A stretch of 64,000 nucleotides of DNA, taken from assembly GCA_016196035.1 (NCBI GenBank), contig JACPYM010000088.1:124001-188000 (forward strand), in the 5' to 3' direction. Below are positions 53,069 to 64,000 of this stretch, in pieces. Each line of letters starts with the position of its first letter. Positions within the stretch are counted from its first letter, which is position 1. Source of the DNA: Acidobacteriota bacterium (GTDB taxonomy: Bacteria; Acidobacteriota; Blastocatellia; RBC074). The notes under the pieces are model-generated. The model had not been told where the DNA came from. It saw nothing but the letters and a program-made list of their open reading frames with translations, and searched no databases. The translations under genes were made by a program, and so were the position numbers.

Positions 53069-53737
53069 TTAACGCTTATCAGCCGCGCGCCACACATAAA
53101 TGTCGCGCGCGATCTCTTCTTCCAACGCGATTTGGGTTTCGTCGCATTGCACGACGTAACTCGGATACCGCTGCAACAATTTGACCGTCGCACCGGGGGC
53201 CAAACCGAGCGCGGAAAGTTTTTGCAAGCGGGCAAATTGCGGGGCGCTGAGATAGGCGACGCGCGCCTGTTCGCCGATGTCCAAACGGTCAACGGAACTC
53301 ACCACGGCAGGGACTTGTTGTTGCGCTTGGCGGCAACACGCGCCGGGCGGGATTTGATGTTGATGCGGGCAAAAACGCGGATGACCGAGCAGCGTGCAGA
53401 TGGCATCGGTCACGCCGCGCGCCAGCAGATGCTCGAATTCGCAGGCGTCGGCTTCGCTCTCTTCCAACGTCATGCCGAGTACATCCACGACCAGGCGTTC
53501 GGCCAACCGATGCCGCCGGATAATCTCTTCAGCGGTCTGACGGCCCAACGTGGTCAGACGAATTTCGTCGTTGCGGCGCACGAGATAACCGCCGCGTTCA
53601 CATTCGTCCAACAGCGTTTCGGTCACAATGGTCTTTGCTTCAGCCGCAATGCGTTCCTGCGTAACCGTGCCTTGCTCGGCACACGTCCAGGCGGCTTCGA
53701 GCACTTCAGTGATTTCTTGTGAAAGCCAATGATGCAT
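53069..53737 (-). CDS. DtxR/MntR-type regulator with FeoA-like C-terminus
   Basis: A protein of 222 residues. Residues 5-70 form a winged helix (VTETLLDECERGGYLVRRN, DEIRLTTLGRQTAEEIIRRHRLAERLVVDVLGM), followed by the metal-binding dimerisation domain with Glu, Cys and His in ADACEFEHLLARGVTDAIC. Next is a Cys/His-rich segment (RFCPHQHQIPPGACC, about 121-135). Residues about 150-215 are FeoA-like (SAPQFARLQKLSALGLAPGATVKLLQRYP). It follows feoB by nine bases. I infer it senses Fe2+ and controls feoB; the FeoA part may also act on FeoB directly. Confidence 0.85.
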   Translation of the reverse strand: MHHWLSQEITEVLEAAWTCAEQGTVTQERIAAEAKTIVTETLLDECERGGYLVRRNDEIRLTTLGRQTAEEIIRRHRLAERLVVDVLGMTLEESEADACEFEHLLARGVTDAICTLLGHPRFCPHQHQIPPGACCRQAQQQVPAVVSSVDRLDIGEQARVAYLSAPQFARLQKLSALGLAPGATVKLLQRYPSYVVQCDETQIALEEEIARDIYVWRAADKR

Positions 53738-53746
53738 AGTGAGGTG

Positions 53747-56077
53747 TTAGAAATGAATATGTAAGGCGCGCAGCAGCCAGCCCACAATGCCGCCGACCGC
53801 AATCGCAAAGGGCGTGATGAAGGCCAGCATCAGCAACGCCTTCCGCATGCCCTGCTCGCGAATGATCATAAAGAAATTGGCCACACAGGGGATGAACAGC
53901 GTCAGCACAATCAGCGAAGTCACGATCTGCACGCTATTGAGCGCCCCTTCGCGCACCATCTGGAACAACCCCGCCGCGCCGTAATCGCGGCGCAAGAAAC
54001 CCAGGATCAACACCTGCGCGGTCTGTCGCGGCAAATGCAAAATGCCCGTCACCAATGGGGCCAGCGCGTTTTCGATCATATCCAGACCGCTCAATCGCCC
54101 CCAGGGCGTGGGCACGCGCAACCAATCCAGCCCGAACAACAGCACCGTGCCCAACAGGAACAGCGGCAAGGCTTCGCGCAAATACCACCAGATGCGCTGG
54201 TGCGTTTTCGCCCAGATGTTTTTGAGTTGCGGCGTGCGAATCGGCGGCAGTTCAAAGATGAAATCGCCGCGCTGCCCTTTGATGATGAGCGATGACAGGA
54301 ACCCGATCAGCAGCATTTGGGAAAACACGACGCCGAAGACGGTCACGACCGCGCCCAGACTGAGCGAGCCGCTGATGGCCAGAATTACACCCAATTGCGC
54401 CGAACACGGCACGCCCAATGCCAACAACAACGTGGCGATCAAACGTTCTTTTGGCGTGGACAAAATACGCGTCGTCATCGTCGCCATTGTGTCGCAACCC
54501 AAGCCCAGCACCATCGGCAACACGGCCTTGCCATTCAACCCCATCACGCGGAAAAGGCGATCCGCCAGAATCGCCAGCCGGGGCAGATAGCCGCTGTCTT
54601 CCAGCAAACCAAAGGCGATGAAAAAGGTCGTGACAATCGGTAACACCAGCGCCAACGCATACGTCAGCCCCACCGAAATCAAGCCGTATTTCCCCAGCAG
54701 AAAATCGTAAACCAGCCCGTGCGGAACCCAGGCTTGCAACCACGGTGTCAGCAGCCCATTGAAAAGATTGTTTTCCAGCGCATCCACCAACGTGCCCGCG
54801 CCGATCACACCGACGAATTCATACATCAGCAACAACACCGCCAACAACACCGGCAAACCCGTGCGCCAATCGCGCGACCAATGCCCCAAGCGTTCGGCGA
54901 AGCTGCGCGAGCGGCGCAAACATAACGCCAGCGGCACCAACACGGGCGCAATCAGCAATAGCAACTGCGTGAGCAGCGGATATAAAAACCCATTCTCATA
55001 CGCGTGGTTTTCCGGGTTGAGTTGCCCGAAAAGCAATGTACCCAGCGTGCCCAGATGATGCCCGGACAGCCAGCTTTGCGCGGCGGGCAAAACGCCGCTT
55101 TCCAGGTGCGCGTTGAGCCAGCCATAGGGCGTCTGCCAGCCAAACAAACGGCCCAGTTCGGTGTAAAGAAAGAGCGCCAAACCCAGCCCCAATGCTGTGA
55201 ACGCCAGCGGAAAGGTTTTACTTTCGGCACTGGCCAGTACACTTGGTGCAGTCTTTTTGAACCGGGCGACGGATTGTTCCAGCCAAAGATTGCGGGCTTC
55301 TTCCAGCCGTGCCGCCAGCGTGCGCAAGCGCGCATCGCTGCGCGGTACCGGCCAGTCAGGCGCTTGCGCTTCCAACCAATGCTCAACGCCGCTCCGCAAA
55401 CTTGCTTCGCGCGTTTGTAGCCATTCCAGCGTGAGTTGTTGCGGCAGCACTTGACCTGAAGTTTGTGCGGGTACGCGGGCGAATTCGGCGGAACTCAATA
55501 ACCGCGCGCGTATCACCGCCAGTGGATCGCGCGGCACCTTGGCGTGGTGAATCGTTTTGAACAGCGTATACAAACCTTCCCCATCAATCGCCACCGTGGG
55601 CACAACGGGGATGCCAAAGAGTTCTTGCAGACCCGCGACATCAATTTCGATCCCGCGCCCGCGCGCTTCGTCCATCAGGTTCAGCACTAGCACCATTGGC
55701 ACGCCCAGTTCGGCCAGTTGCGTCGTGACCAATAAAGTCCGGCGCAAATTCTTGGCATCGGCGACCTGCACAATCACATCTGGCCGCACGGCCAATAACA
55801 AATCGCGCGTCACGCGTTCGTCGTCGGATTGCGGCACCAGCGCATTGACGCCGGGCGTATCAATCACTTCCCAGTCGCGTCCGCCATACCGCAATTTGCC
55901 GCGCGAGACTTCGACCGTTGTGCCCGGATAATTCGAGACGGTCACGTACTTGCCGGTCAGATAACCGAAGATCACCGATTTGCCGACGTTGGGATTGCCG
56001 ACCAACAACAGCCGGGGTTGTTTCTCAGTGATCTCTGTGACGGGCACGCGCGCGGGTTCAGCGGTCAAAGTTGGCAT
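53747..56077 (-). CDS. feoB: Ferrous iron transporter FeoB
   Basis: A protein of 776 residues. G1 is GNPNVGKS (27-34), G2 is within SNYPGTTVE, G3 is DTPG and G4 is NLMD. The soluble G domain and helical region run to about 290, followed by the membrane part with two Gate motifs and the core GLGCDTMATMTTRIL. FeoB imports Fe2+ through the inner membrane. The ATG at 56077 was chosen; a TTG at 56089 also opens the frame. No separate feoA gene is seen; the FeoA-like domain is on the following DtxR gene. A Fur-box-like site lies upstream at 56109-56127. Confidence 0.95.
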   Translation of the reverse strand: MPTLTAEPARVPVTEITEKQPRLLLVGNPNVGKSVIFGYLTGKYVTVSNYPGTTVEVSRGKLRYGGRDWEVIDTPGVNALVPQSDDERVTRDLLLAVRPDVIVQVADAKNLRRTLLVTTQLAELGVPMVLVLNLMDEARGRGIEIDVAGLQELFGIPVVPTVAIDGEGLYTLFKTIHHAKVPRDPLAVIRARLLSSAEFARVPAQTSGQVLPQQLTLEWLQTREASLRSGVEHWLEAQAPDWPVPRSDARLRTLAARLEEARNLWLEQSVARFKKTAPSVLASAESKTFPLAFTALGLGLALFLYTELGRLFGWQTPYGWLNAHLESGVLPAAQSWLSGHHLGTLGTLLFGQLNPENHAYENGFLYPLLTQLLLLIAPVLVPLALCLRRSRSFAERLGHWSRDWRTGLPVLLAVLLLMYEFVGVIGAGTLVDALENNLFNGLLTPWLQAWVPHGLVYDFLLGKYGLISVGLTYALALVLPIVTTFFIAFGLLEDSGYLPRLAILADRLFRVMGLNGKAVLPMVLGLGCDTMATMTTRILSTPKERLIATLLLALGVPCSAQLGVILAISGSLSLGAVVTVFGVVFSQMLLIGFLSSLIIKGQRGDFIFELPPIRTPQLKNIWAKTHQRIWWYLREALPLFLLGTVLLFGLDWLRVPTPWGRLSGLDMIENALAPLVTGILHLPRQTAQVLILGFLRRDYGAAGLFQMVREGALNSVQIVTSLIVLTLFIPCVANFFMIIREQGMRKALLMLAFITPFAIAVGGIVGWLLRALHIHF

Positions 56078-56909
56078 TGTCGGGTTCAAACCTCATCAAA
56101 AGCTAAATGGATATGATTTTCATTTTGAACTATAACCGAAAGCCGAGAGGGACGCCAACATAATTTGCGCCGCAGGTTGAATAGGACAAACTCTGAAGAA
56201 AAAGGCGGACTTTTCCGATAGGAAATGGAGCGTTGCGCTGATTTTCCGAACATCGAGCTTTGGCTATTCTCTGCCTGCCTGCGGGAACAACAGTTCATTA
56301 CTGAGTTACCGGCAGGCTCAGACGTTGGCTGGCAGTTCAAACTGCCGCCGAGAAATCGCAGCAGCGGCACAAGCATTGAAATGGATATGGGAATGCCTGT
56401 TTCAATGCTTGCGCTTCAATACGGTTTTGCGGTGAAGATCAAAGCGGCGCGTTCCGACGGTGGTCCTGAGATGGGATGGGAGGCTTAGCGCCGGGAGGTG
56501 GGAACGCCAACTGAAACGATCACGCGGGCAGTAAGACGGCACTCGAAGAGACAAGGGACTGATCTTCTGGTTGCCCATGCGGCTCGCGAACATCAACGTT
56601 GAAACTCGTTTCGGCCGGGGCCGGCCGCACAGTAACAAACTGGCAGAGGACGCGCTTGGGGACGGGTGCGGGGTTCAGATTACCCGCCGATATCGGCAAG
56701 CTGCTTCGTCTTAACGGTGCGTAGGCGATGGGCTTAATGCCAGCTTCGCGCAAAGCGGGTAGCCAACAACTCTTTTTGCGAGATGTTGTCAGCATGCCAA
56801 TTTGCTTCTTTGAGGTCGGCATCGGCCGATTATATTTGGTAGGGCCTGCGCCTTACCCACTGAGTTATTCATCCAGGCAAAGCGGCGTTCTACTTTCCTA
56901 CGTTGCCGA
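56078..56909. other. Gene-free stretch upstream of feoB
   Basis: About 830 bases, the longest in the window. The left end holds the feoB promoter with a Fur-box-like site. The rest has no credible frame; the longest (56520-56822, - strand) lacks a ribosome site and family features. Near 56840-56875 a segment resembles an antisense tRNA D-arm but does not fold as a tRNA. The region may hold decayed sequence. Confidence 0.55.
56109..56127 (-). promoter_or_regulatory. Fur-box-like site upstream of feoB
   Basis: On the - strand the site reads CAAAATGAAAATCATATCC, which matches 13 of 19 positions of the classical Fur box GATAATGATAATCATTATC and keeps its centre TGANAATCAT. It lies about 30-50 bases before the feoB start. 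A DtxR-type site is also possible, since the operon encodes a DtxR protein. Confidence 0.45.
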
Positions 56910-60243: not shown

Positions 60244-61127
60244 CGGATGATTTTGTTCTTCTTCAGAAAGGTGGTCAGCGTACCGTTGAATTTCTCCGGC
60301 TCATCCATCATCAGGAAGTGGCTGACGCCCGGCCAGACCTGGTATTCGATGCCCGGCACCAGGTCGCGCACATACTTTTCATAATCGGCGCTCCACTGCG
60401 GATTGACCGCCATCAGCGCCAGCGTGGGCACGTTGATTTTATCCGCCTCTTTCCAGATTTCAGGATCGAGCATTCCGTCGAAGGCCGAGATCATCACGTG
60501 TTGCGGCGCGCTCAGCATCGCGGCTTTCACTTCATTGCGCGTTTGCTCGTTTTTCATCGCCTGCGTCAGATACGTCACCATCTGTTCAGCGTGTTGTTTG
60601 TACCCAGGCCCGCGAAACGGGTCGAGAAACTGCTTCATGGATTCTTTCGTGCCCATTGACTTGAGACTACCGTCCACGATGACCAGCGCGCGCACTTTGG
60701 CAGGATACCTGCGATAAAACTGGCGGATGACCGGCGTGCCCATGCTGTGGCCAACCAGCACGGCGCGTTCGACCTTGGCGTCTTGCAAGACGGCATCAAT
60801 CGCGCGTGCAAACAAATCCATCGAATAAGCGATGTTGTCAGGCTTGTCACTCTCACCGTGGCCGGGCAGGTCAATCGCAATCACGCGCGTCTGGCCGATG
60901 AAGGCTGGCACATTGGCTTTCCAGAACGTGGCGTTGCACGTCCAGCCGTGAACGAAAACGAGGGCCTCGTTCCCTTTTCCATAATTGTCATAATGCACGC
61001 GCAGGCCGTCGAGATTGGCAAAGCGGGTTTGCGGTTTGGGCGTTTGGGCAAAGGCTGTCTGTACACTTAGCCAAGCAAGACAAAGAGTCGCAGCCGTGAA
61101 TGCGGGGTGGCGCATTAATCGAAGCAT
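60240..61127 (-). CDS. Exported alpha/beta hydrolase
   Basis: A protein of 295 residues with a signal peptide (about 1-28, ending TAFAQ). The fold is clear: [14 protein letters not shown] (oxyanion loop), the nucleophile elbow GHSMGT and a late His in [13 protein letters not shown]. The start at 61127 was chosen over 61154. It overlaps rfbF by four bases, so a periplasmic hydrolase is co-translated with a cytoplasmic sugar-nucleotide enzyme. It may remove or trim an acyl group on the glycan, but this is only inference. Confidence 0.85.
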
Positions 61128-61140
61128 AGTTCTGGACCTT

Positions 61141-62748
61141 TCATTGAAGAGCATTCGTGATGGCCGTCCGAAACCAGTTGGTTTGTACGAGCCGTTTGGG
61201 GGGTAGCTTTAATTTACTCAGGAGTTGCCGGTTGAAGCGTGTTTTCATATCGAAATATGGGTAAAAGCTTTCCAGGTCGTCGCTGCGTAGCGCCTGCACA
61301 ATAGCCTGGGTAGCATTTTCGTCCCGCTTGATGTTTTCGTCATTCAACACGGAGTAGCCGCGGCGCGCGCCTTCCAAGCCGGTCAAGATGTAATCGCGCT
61401 GTTCGTTCTTTTGCCGCCCGATCTCAGCGCGGTAGGTTTCGGCATCAAAATCCGGGACGGCTTCCTGTAAGTTGTCAGGATGATAAAGATAGTTCTCAAA
61501 AGCGTAATAACCAAGTACGCGCAAATTGGGGAAATGCTGACGTAGCCTGGCAATCTCTCCGTCAGTCAAATAATCGCGATCCATCAACCCGTAGTATGCA
61601 GGGTTCTGTTTCACGTTCAAATAGACTTGCCGTTTGTCTTGCACGCCAATGAACAATTTGTCGGGCAGGTTAAGCAGGTTGTAGTACTCATCATTCTTGT
61701 TTTCACAGAGGATCAGTTGCTTGCCCTGAAAGACGCGCAGCAACGTTTCTTTAGGGACGGCAATCTCGTAAACCTCGAGTGACTCTTTTGGTTGCGGAAT
61801 GATGGTTTGCGGTAGATCGAAGTCGAATTGATCGAAGTCGAGGAGCGCGGCGTGCGCGGCTTCGCGGGCATACTGAATGAAGCCGAGCGAATGGCTGGCC
61901 GTCCAAAGCTGACAGTTATCGGGAATCCAATGTTCAGTGATCTCTTTCAGAAGCGCATATTGCAGGGAAGTATTGAGATGGGCATCAAGCTCGTCTATAA
62001 AGTAAATTGTATCGCGGTATAGGTTATTACGATTGAATAGATTGAAAAGAATGTTGACGATCTCTTTTTCACCACTGCTAAGCAAGTTGTAGTGAACGTC
62101 GGCTTCGCCTTTGCGGAAACGAATGTCGGCGGGCTTTCCTTCCAGGGGTGGAACCAGCCGGTGAAGCACCAGGGAAGTTGGCGGCTTTGCCCCAAAGACC
62201 CTTTCGAGGGCCTGGTTGATGGGATTGATGTAGCGAGTCTTTAATTCGTCAGAGTCGAAGCGCCCACCGTTGAACACTTCTTTGAGAATCTTGCCAGTCA
62301 CGACGTCCAGGTCATTTTCAAATCGCTGATCAAGCTCAATGTAAAGACGAGGACGATCCCGGTCATGCTCGATCTCGATAGAAGTTTGAGGGCCAGTTCG
62401 GGTCAGACGAGGAACCTGTCTTAATGCGCTACGTCCATAAAAAGCAGTCTTATCAACTGCTGATCCCTGGTTGTTGGCACTCCTCTTAGCGACATATCCA
62501 TCGTTAAACTCTACGGAAACTTCAGACGCATCTTGAGCAACTTTGCTGTAATAGGCCGGGTCGCCAGAGGAATTCCTATCCTTGCTATAACTAGAGACCC
62601 ACTCAAAGGCATCAAAAACACAACTCTTTCCACTACCGTTCGCCCCAATCATCAACACCAACTTCGGTGCCGGTTGTGCAATTGACAGGTCAATTGTCAG
62701 ATCAGTAAAGCGTTTGAAGTTTTGCAGTCGCAGCTTGTTGATAAACAT
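61141..62748 (-). CDS. AAA ATPase-DUF4435 fusion, PARIS-like
   Basis: A protein of 535 residues with two parts. Residues 1-320 are an SMC/ABC-type AAA ATPase: Walker A GANGSGKS (35-42), signature LSSGEKEI (about 221), Walker B IYFIDELDAH (about 250) and the H-loop ASHS (about 285). Residues about 344-535 match the TOPRIM-like DUF4435 fold: LILCENKNDEYY (acidic start), VQDKRQV, GLMDRDYL (DxD) and YYAFENYLYHP. In the PARIS anti-phage system the ATPase AriA holds the DUF4435 nuclease AriB until triggered; fused forms are known. The ATG at 62748 is 11 bases after the GT2 stop. It could alternatively be another OLD-like AAA-TOPRIM nuclease. Confidence 0.75.
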   Translation of the reverse strand: MFINKLRLQNFKRFTDLTIDLSIAQPAPKLVLMIGANGSGKSCVFDAFEWVSSYSKDRNSSGDPAYYSKVAQDASEVSVEFNDGYVAKRSANNQGSAVDKTAFYGRSALRQVPRLTRTGPQTSIEIEHDRDRPRLYIELDQRFENDLDVVTGKILKEVFNGGRFDSDELKTRYINPINQALERVFGAKPPTSLVLHRLVPPLEGKPADIRFRKGEADVHYNLLSSGEKEIVNILFNLFNRNNLYRDTIYFIDELDAHLNTSLQYALLKEITEHWIPDNCQLWTASHSLGFIQYAREAAHAALLDFDQFDFDLPQTIIPQPKESLEVYEIAVPKETLLRVFQGKQLILCENKNDEYYNLLNLPDKLFIGVQDKRQVYLNVKQNPAYYGLMDRDYLTDGEIARLRQHFPNLRVLGYYAFENYLYHPDNLQEAVPDFDAETYRAEIGRQKNEQRDYILTGLEGARRGYSVLNDENIKRDENATQAIVQALRSDDLESFYPYFDMKTRFNRQLLSKLKLPPKRLVQTNWFRTAITNALQ

Positions 62749-62759
62749 AGCGCAGTCTT

Positions 62760-63521
62760 TCAATTCTTGTTTGAATTGTGCTCCAACTCCCAGATTTTGG
62801 CGTATTTCAGGAACACACTGTAGGCCGTGAACATTGCAATAATCAATCCCTGCACGCCATCGCGAAAGCCTTGTTTGAGCAGGTACGTGCGCACAAAGGC
62901 CGCCACCGGCAACACAAACAACTCCGCCATCCGCGCGCGCTTGCCGCTCTTGTGCAAGTGTTCCGCCGCGAGCGTGGTGTAGGTGTCGAGCACACGATGA
63001 TGGTCGCTCAGGTCGCGTTTGGTGTAATGCAGCAACTCGCCCGGCAAAATTTCAACGCGCCCGCGCACGTGGGCGACTTCGTGTGGCGCAACACCGTCCC
63101 AATAACTGGCGGCCTTGCGATAAAGCCGCATCTGGTAATCGGGATACCAGCCCGAATGCTTGATCCACCGACCCAAATAAAACGTGCGCCGCGCGATCTT
63201 GAAGCCATCCGGCAACGCCGTCGGGTCTTGTTGGCGCAAGGCTTCGGTAGCGGCGCACAACTCCGGCGTCACTCGTTCATCGGCGTCGAGCCAAAGTATC
63301 CAATCGCCCGTTGTCAGCGAATCGGAATACAGGTGCTTGTCTTTGTAACCGCGAAATTCGCGCTGAAAAATCTTGTCGGTATACCGGCGCGCAATTTCAA
63401 CTGTATTGTCGGTCGAAGCCGAGTCGCAGACGACAAGTTCGTCCGCCCAGGCGACCGATTCGCAGGCGGCGGCGATGTTATCGGCTTCGTTATAGACGTT
63501 GATTTTGACGGAGATTTTCAA
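62760..63521 (-). CDS. WaaE/KdtX-like family 2 glycosyltransferase
   Basis: A protein of 253 residues. The GT2 pattern is [19 protein letters not shown] at the start, [18 protein letters not shown] and [11 protein letters not shown] (DxD). The central [18 protein letters not shown] and [21 protein letters not shown] segments are typical of the lipopolysaccharide core transferase group WaaE/KdtX. The only sensible start is a TTG at 63521, giving MKISVKINV, nine bases after the Uma2 stop; the longer frame has no ribosome site. It probably adds a sugar to LPS or another surface glycan. Confidence 0.8.
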
Positions 63522-63529
63522 GCGGGCTT

Positions 63530-64000
63530 TTAGACTTTCGGAGGGGAAGGGGTTGGCATAAACAAGGACGCGACTGGGCAAGCGAAGCCGGGTAAGAGCG
63601 GCGAAGTCAATGCGTCTTCGTTGAGCAAGGTGGCAATTTGTGTGAGCCGGGTGCGCTGGCGGCGGAAGACTTCGACGCGCTTTTTCTGCCAATCCACAAT
63701 CCAGTATTCGCGCACACCGCGCCGCGAATAGAGCTTCAATTTGGTGTCACGGTCACGCGTTTCGTTTTGCCAGCCAGGTGAAATCACTTCGACCACCAAA
63801 TCGGGTGCATCGTTCAGCTTGCCATTTTCGCCGAGAATCTGTGGCAACCGTTCGGCGCTAACCCACACCACATCAGGCGCGACGGCATCGTAAATGCTGA
63901 AGATGACGCCGGGCGCTAGTACTCCATCAAGCTGTAAGTGATGGATGCTGAGAGCGCATCCGGGATGTAGGGCGGGATTAAATCCCGCCCTACATCCCTC
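63530..64000 (-). CDS. Uma2-family (DUF820) protein, 5' end cut by the window
   Basis: The visible C-terminal part has the Uma2 core: [55 protein letters not shown]. This is a restriction endonuclease-like fold with unknown role, often in many copies in Acidobacteriota and Cyanobacteria. The frame stays open to the window edge, but bases 63962-63998 are a perfect palindrome translated in frame, so the N-terminus is either beyond the edge or disrupted by the repeat. No start can be assigned. Confidence 0.7.
63962..63998. repeat. Perfect 18-bp palindrome at the window edge
   Basis: GGGATGTAGGGCGGGATT and its reverse complement AATCCCGCCCTACATCCC are separated by one A. It lies in the open frame of the Uma2 gene. 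Confidence 0.85.

Follow-up and report, generated by a model that had tools for sequence, protein, structure and literature searches.

The 535-residue protein encoded at positions 61141–62748 of the window (the 64,000-nucleotide stretch of Acidobacteriota DNA analyzed here) joins an ABC-type ATPase to an AriB-like TOPRIM nuclease domain on a single chain and has homologues in several phyla. The family probably represents a self-contained, horizontally acquired abortive-infection effector of PARIS/OLD-like type (probability about 0.6), with its defense function, trigger, RNA substrate, and coupling all presumptive. As far as the searches go, and within the literature searched, the clade, its signature, its operon-embedded insertions, and a phage copy that has only the ATPase are new here.

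Gene and Genomic Surroundings

The ORF lies on the minus strand, which the sequence-only reading of this DNA had left unstated while giving position and length correctly. It starts with ATG at 62748–62746, a start codon common to the homologues in the alignment, and ends with a stop codon at 61143–61141. A chance reading frame is excluded by full-length homologues in other phyla that share 38–53% identity. Upstream on the same strand, 11 nt (62749–62759, the gap already counted in that reading) separate the ORF from the stop of a GT2 glycosyltransferase gene at 62760 (PF00535, Pfam). Downstream, an alpha/beta hydrolase gene (PF00561, Pfam) has two candidate starts, i.e., ATG 61154, which gives a 14-nt overlap, and ATG 61127, which leaves a 13-nt gap and is preceded by AAGGT. 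The latter is more likely, such that the minus-strand junction probably spans 61128–61140 with the hydrolase ATG at 61127–61125. The hydrolase gene is followed by genes for a glucose-1-phosphate cytidylyltransferase (TIGR02623, above cut-off) and a sugar dehydratase/epimerase (PF01370), the best NCBIfam match of which, CDP-glucose 4,6-dehydratase, is under its cut-off. The neighbors are thus those first proposed, and they are household genes with no obvious defense island, again as proposed; this setting is a counterpoint to a defense function. The gene looks foreign in composition because its G+C content is 48.9% vs 55–59% in the neighboring genes measured, and its GC3 is 0.56 vs 0.66–0.72.

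A gene for a Uma2-family putative endonuclease (63530–63871, minus strand) adjoins the GT2 gene and is likewise found beside GT2 in the related genome G398. The listed TTG start of the window GT2 overlaps this gene, and the GT2 start is therefore probably further in. Elsewhere in the window, 53069–56089 (minus strand) holds a FeoB gene next to a gene for an iron-dependent repressor that includes a FeoA domain (53069–53737).

The ATPase Domain

The ATPase domain spans residues 1–320 (61789–62748) and harbors a Walker A motif (GANGSGKS, residues 35–42, 62623–62646), an ABC signature (LSSGEK, residues 223–228, 62065–62082), and a Walker B motif (YFIDE, residues 249–253, 61990–62004), all on the minus strand. 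G35, G40, K41, and S42 of the first, L223, S224, G226, and E227 of the second, and D252 and E253 of the third are invariant in 17/17 aligned homologues, as is H286. The window protein matches Pfam AAA_15 (3e-17, 63.8 bits) and AAA_21 (7.5e-11, 43.1 bits), both above cut-off, and these two families along with SMC_N match 12/12 aligned family members.

The closest fold is that of PtuA of retron Ec78/Ec83 and Septu (Z about 22 across roughly 300 residues). A profile search of the PDB scores retron/PtuA-type ATPases at 8e-17 and 3e-14, vs 7e-4 for AriA. When the whole model is compared, the ATPase fills the 50 matches listed, and the absence of AriA among them is uninformative. In PADLOC, the top profiles for the whole window protein are AriA and AriAB, with the best AriAB stretch located within the ATPase part.

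The Nuclease Domain

Residues 325–535 (61144–61776, minus strand) form an AriB-like TOPRIM/DUF4435-like domain with a helical tail, assigned by profile–profile comparison, fold, and PADLOC. E349 (61702–61704, minus strand), the counterpart of AriB E26, aligns with the EG motif of DUF4435 and is invariant in 17/17 homologues. The same holds for D390 and D392 of the DxD motif (DRD, residues 390–392, 61573–61581, minus strand) and for E418 of the FENYL motif (residues 417–421, 61486–61500, minus strand), in which F417 and N419 are variable. D353, where the canonical TOPRIM EGxxD has its second acidic position, is not conserved (5/12 core members), a point against the effector reading. TOPRIM proteins usually have E-G at the catalytic glutamate. 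In the core clade (defined below), E-N replaces it, with N in 11/12 members and G in 5/5 outgroup rows. Both the ATPase and the nuclease domain are expected to be catalytically active because their catalytic residues are invariant across the 17 homologues.

The C-terminal 211 residues, modeled alone, have a mean pLDDT of 90.5. Foldseek with this model gives no confident match (best E 0.083). On a ranking of Foldseek's 1000 best PDB chains by VIA-align, which compares a predicted model and yields moderate Z values, AriB of PARIS comes first (8ux9_A, Z 9.2, 172 residues aligned, rmsd 4.4) and second (8v46_D, Z 8.4), with OLD C-terminal domains (Z 5.3 and 4.8) and GajA (3.4) below. A profile–profile comparison of the 12 core C-terminal domains with 8 DUF4435-type domains scores 84 and places the E, DxD, and ENYL motifs in register, vs at most 17.9 for 40 column shuffles and at most 13.6 for 40 reversed or rotated versions; the DUF4435-type profile used also recovers AriB in the PDB. 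The PADLOC AriB profile matches 7/12 C-terminal domains (best E 1.9e-8), although the window protein does so weakly (E 0.01). Pfam DUF4435 (PF14491) matches 1/12 (E 0.0027), a Pfam search of the TOPRIM half of the window protein with E up to 10 returns no match, DUF4435 included, and searching the PDB with a profile of the C-terminal alignment gives a chance-level match only.

The view that both parts are well formed is thereby borne out, the ATPase by Pfam matches above cut-off and the TOPRIM domain by profile–profile comparison and fold. The sequence-only reading had tied its assignment to a DUF4435 or AriB match and to conserved DxD and FENYL motifs. The outcome is divided: profile searches bring up AriA/AriAB for the whole protein but AriB only weakly and DUF4435 not at all in the window protein, and FENYL is kept only at its E, while the DxD is invariant and the fold comparison of the C-terminal model returns AriB chains as its best two. 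The missing direct DUF4435 match is overruled because profile–profile and fold comparisons match AriB/DUF4435. The suggestion of a new AAA-TOPRIM effector gains support from this AriB/DUF4435-like C-terminal domain and its invariant E, DxD, and E418. Other single-chain ATPase-DUF4435 proteins occur in the same class (L044, 548 aa; L045, 541 aa), and these match Pfam DUF4435, L045 just under the cut-off.

Family, Phylogeny, and Distribution

One scan of GTDB contigs recovered 8 full-length relatives with 38–53% identity (best segment) in Acidobacteriota, Bacteroidota, and Planctomycetota, and 3 further close homologues came from a Bacteroidota class. Remote homologues comprise 3 from Acidobacteriota (27–30% identity), 1 from a Zymomonas plasmid, and 1 from a viral contig. 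In a tree of 17 rows (12 core members and 5 outgroup rows), the 12 close members form a core clade on one side of a branch with 100/100 support, within which the window protein groups with two other Acidobacteriota copies (98/98). The family is rare and patchy in its phyla, being found in 4/395 genomes of one Bacteroidota class, 1/246 of Planctomycetota, and 2/161 of an acidobacterial class (E ≤ 1e-80; the counts include the query genomes). Searches of phage records found no close homologues, and those of plasmids found two remote ones only.

The sister-clade AAA-family ATPases, not assigned to any system (L003, L004, L005, L083, and the Zymomonas plasmid pZMOB01 in L090), which are 526–536 aa long and about 27–30% identical to the window protein, have the same domain order and catalytic residues. 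Unlike the core clade, they carry the canonical E-G at the TOPRIM glutamate and a shorter C-terminal tail, and they form a separate clade (100/100). The viral contig encodes a full-length 532-aa sister-clade member (L083:8001-9599).

Operon Settings and Empty Sites

The surroundings of the core copies examined differ from copy to copy and include pyrimidine, heme, tRNA-amidation, repair, and transport settings. Profile-named neighbors are an acyl-CoA ligase and DUF488 (L034), dihydroorotase and protoporphyrinogen oxidase (L036), Mfd and an AMP-binding enzyme (L085), and, in Bacteroidota, a MauE-like protein and a transport permease (L086) or a DegT aminotransferase and a UDP-glucose-type dehydrogenase (L087). 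A further Bacteroidota copy (L037) is flanked by an antitoxin-type gene pair, in which Pfam recognizes the antitoxin alone, and by GatB. GT2 and hydrolase genes together were not seen in other family genomes, some of which are fragmented assemblies.

Among the 10 copies with two visible neighbors, 7 have both on the same strand and within 45 nt, vs 8 of 77 further ORFs from these loci (Fisher p 1e-4); for this count, the GT2 neighbor in the window was set by hand (automated ORF picking alone gives 6/10 vs 8/77). The control is rough, being drawn from the same loci by the same picker with a minimum ORF length of 150 aa, and a further two copies at contig edges were set aside. L033, L035, and L068 depart from the tight two-sided spacing. 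The very tight spacing suggests co-transcription and probably co-translation with household genes. A literature search (titles and abstract openings, subscription journals lying mostly outside its coverage) found no description of operon-embedded behavior, which is weak evidence of absence.

Empty sites are found in relatives. At the L086 and L087 sites, the flanking genes are directly adjacent in 11/11 and 11/11 relatives examined (the best 11 of 20 and the best 11 of 26 other matching relatives, respectively). In the closest relative of G615, whose flanks are 98% and 94% identical, 3 nt separate the flanking genes; the same site in G615 holds 18 nt and the ORF, the stop of which overlaps the next start as ATGA. 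At the L037 site, the family gene follows the toxin-antitoxin-like pair between alaS and gatB. Of 24 other matching relatives, the best 11 were examined: alaS directly precedes gatB in 5/11, and the others have a homologous antitoxin-toxin pair (one relative, which thus has a similar pair alone there), small toxin-like pairs named by eye (two relatives), an opposite-strand ORF (one), or different genes (two). In the relatives of G500 (L103-L114), the alaS-gatB junction, flanked by two translation genes, is an accessory hotspot that contains antitoxin-toxin-like pairs, the family ATPase-nuclease, or nothing.

The window site is empty in one genome, G398, where the Uma2, GT2, hydrolase, cytidylyltransferase, and dehydratase genes follow one another and 3 nt separate GT2 from the hydrolase gene. 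The ACT before the hydrolase ATG at this empty site is also present in the window. In the same-genus genome G416, the family gene lies 5 nt behind GT2 (L068:1230-3673, compared with window 61141-63692); the family proteins are 52.5% identical and the GT2 proteins 77%. The low identity of the two copies reflects either rapid evolution or replacement of the gene at the same site. The family gene is inserted cleanly between genes of household operons and, as part of the best explanation, was probably acquired horizontally.

A Phage-Encoded ATPase-Only Homologue

A 95-kb IMG/VR contig (IMGVR_UViG_3300036781_000838) encodes a 320-aa homologue (L082:7986-8948, plus strand) that matches window residues 1–321 at 39.6% identity and terminates where the two domains meet. 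The 17 kb around it yielded no TOPRIM half, and among its neighbors are matches to phage DNA polymerase, DNA ligase, exonuclease VIII, and homing endonuclease families. The phage copy pairs with the bacterial L039 (44% identity; support 99/98) on a long branch. It keeps 25/28 checked positions, Walker A and the signature included. The three substitutions are E253D, at the catalytic Walker B glutamate, H257N, and L258I. Every one of the 17 full-length proteins retains E253 and H257, and 16 retain L258. A scan for more viral ATPase-only copies returned the same contig only.

Because a sensor that lacks its nuclease and has a modified hydrolysis site resembles a dominant-negative inhibitor, this single copy is a candidate decoy against defense by the family. 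The sober alternative is a decayed cargo gene.

Relationship to Known Systems and Alternative Functions

PARIS consists of AriA and AriB, which also occur as AriAB fusions. AriB is retained in the AriA hexamer until its release by an Ocr-like protein, after which it cuts tRNA (PMC12409363; PMC11455837). The window family resembles PARIS in coupling an ABC ATPase to an AriB-like TOPRIM domain and in sharing the E, D-R-[DE], and ENY motifs. It differs in being one short chain, with a nuclease domain of 211 aa vs about 310 in AriB, in falling below the DUF4435 profile, and in having E-N for E-G in 11/12 core members. As the sequence-only reading had pointed out, 535 residues are fewer than AriA plus AriB (464 and 308–316 residues, respectively, in PDB chains). 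AriB lysines K60 and K64, reported to hold tRNA (PMC12409363), have no proven counterpart in the window protein, which also counts against the effector reading. The published detection rule for PARIS asks for AAA_15 above 32 bits or AAA_21 above 27 bits, plus DUF4435 (PF14491) above 27 bits (PMC9122126). The window protein surpasses both ATPase thresholds; it falls short on DUF4435 with the Pfam model, the rule also having fusion profiles of its own. An AriB-like TOPRIM fold and a catalytic glutamate with DxD/DxE are present, as judged from the predicted fold and the 17/17 invariance.

A true fused PARIS, diverged below the profiles and retaining an Ocr-like anti-restriction trigger and a tRNA target, is a reading to be weighed, and the sequence-only reading had proposed such a compact variant, for which support is partial. 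The AriB-like nuclease half, the leading PADLOC AriA and AriAB profiles, and the inclusion of fused AAA-DUF4435 proteins in the founding paper (PMC9122126) speak for it. However, DUF4435 is missed in all but one of the 12 C-terminal domains, the best AriAB stretch lies in the ATPase part, the ATPase is at least as near the retron/Septu PtuA type as AriA, and 535 aa leave little space for the extra parts of AriA. This reading is considered unlikely. The family is not classed as PARIS because it misses the DUF4435 cut-off, and it is filed under the OLD/PARIS kind.

OLD proteins (class 1 and the class 2 GajA of Gabija) likewise carry an ABC ATPase followed by a TOPRIM nuclease on one chain encoded by a stand-alone gene, and this superfamily order is that of the window protein. 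In contrast to OLD and GajA, its TOPRIM fold is nearer AriB, it has no helicase neighbor, and it is inserted inside household operons. The UvrD-like helicase gene of class 2 is absent, GT2 and hydrolase genes being adjacent instead; judged from the adjacent genes, so are the reverse transcriptase and ncRNA of class 3 (retrons). The separate ATPase and TOPRIM genes of class 4 do not apply to a single ORF. PtuA (Septu, retron Ec78/Ec83) resembles the ATPase domain but works with an HNH partner, PtuB, in place of a fused TOPRIM domain. A recent OLD tree contains 11 unnamed clades (PMC12796447), of which the window family may be one. An OLD-type nuclease, Gabija- or class 1-like, that nicks or cuts phage DNA at low nucleotides would fit the domain order and the second-best fold rank of OLD C-terminal domains; it is improbable, given that AriB scores clearly higher than OLD and GajA in the same fold list and that the window copy is without an adjacent helicase partner.

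A chromosomal repair or cell-cycle ATPase-nuclease is quite unlikely. The SMC/RecF-like ATPase matches and the chromosomal operon setting are in keeping with such a role, for which Cran1, an OLD-type protein serving the cell cycle instead of defense, is a precedent (PMC12796447), but very few genomes carry the gene, it is cleanly absent from close relatives, and a nuclease-less phage copy exists. A functional link to glycan synthesis is highly improbable and is rejected, since, for all its place between GT2 and the hydrolase-cytidylyltransferase-dehydratase genes, the GT2 neighbor shared with the same-genus genome, and the Bacteroidota copy between aminotransferase and UDP-sugar dehydrogenase genes, the other copies occupy unrelated operons and empty sites exist, one of them in the same operon of a related genome; the glycan operon seen by the sequence-only reading is a landing site in the window genome, and the gene is not part of a glycan pathway.

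Proposed Mechanism

As a PARIS/OLD-like abortive-infection effector, the protein would use its OLD-superfamily ABC ATPase to sense infection and to restrain the AriB-type TOPRIM nuclease on the same chain. With nuclease and ATPase in one chain, there is no free effector to release, unlike in PARIS; activation must therefore be allosteric. In GajA, the TOPRIM domain is held closed while ATP is bound and opens once ATP is lost (PMC12796447). By analogy, an ATPase-tethered nuclease would be expected to combine GajA-type control with an AriB-type active site: ATP-bound ATPase domains may oligomerize and keep the nuclease closed, with opening brought about by a phage trigger or by declining ATP. 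The two-metal TOPRIM site (E349, D390, D392, and probably E418) would then cleave cellular nucleic acid, and growth would be halted before phage release. RNA is the first-guess substrate because the nuclease half is nearest AriB, with structured RNA such as tRNA the likeliest target. The gene probably lacks a promoter of its own and would ride household operons.

It is possible, though doubtful, that the family exemplifies mobile, promoterless "operon-rider" defense genes, which would insert without scars at gene borders in several phyla, borrow host transcription and translational coupling, and be opposed by phage decoys that lack the nuclease and are altered in Walker B.

Implications

With this family, the range of the AriB-type nuclease comes to include a compact one-chain format, missed by Pfam DUF4435, in phyla with few studied defense genes. 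The one-chain design allows allosteric control of an AriB-like nuclease to be tested directly. The phage copy, if a decoy, would be strong evidence for defense and a ready inhibitor to study. The setting suggests that defense-like genes can hide in household operons, beyond the reach of defense-island searches.
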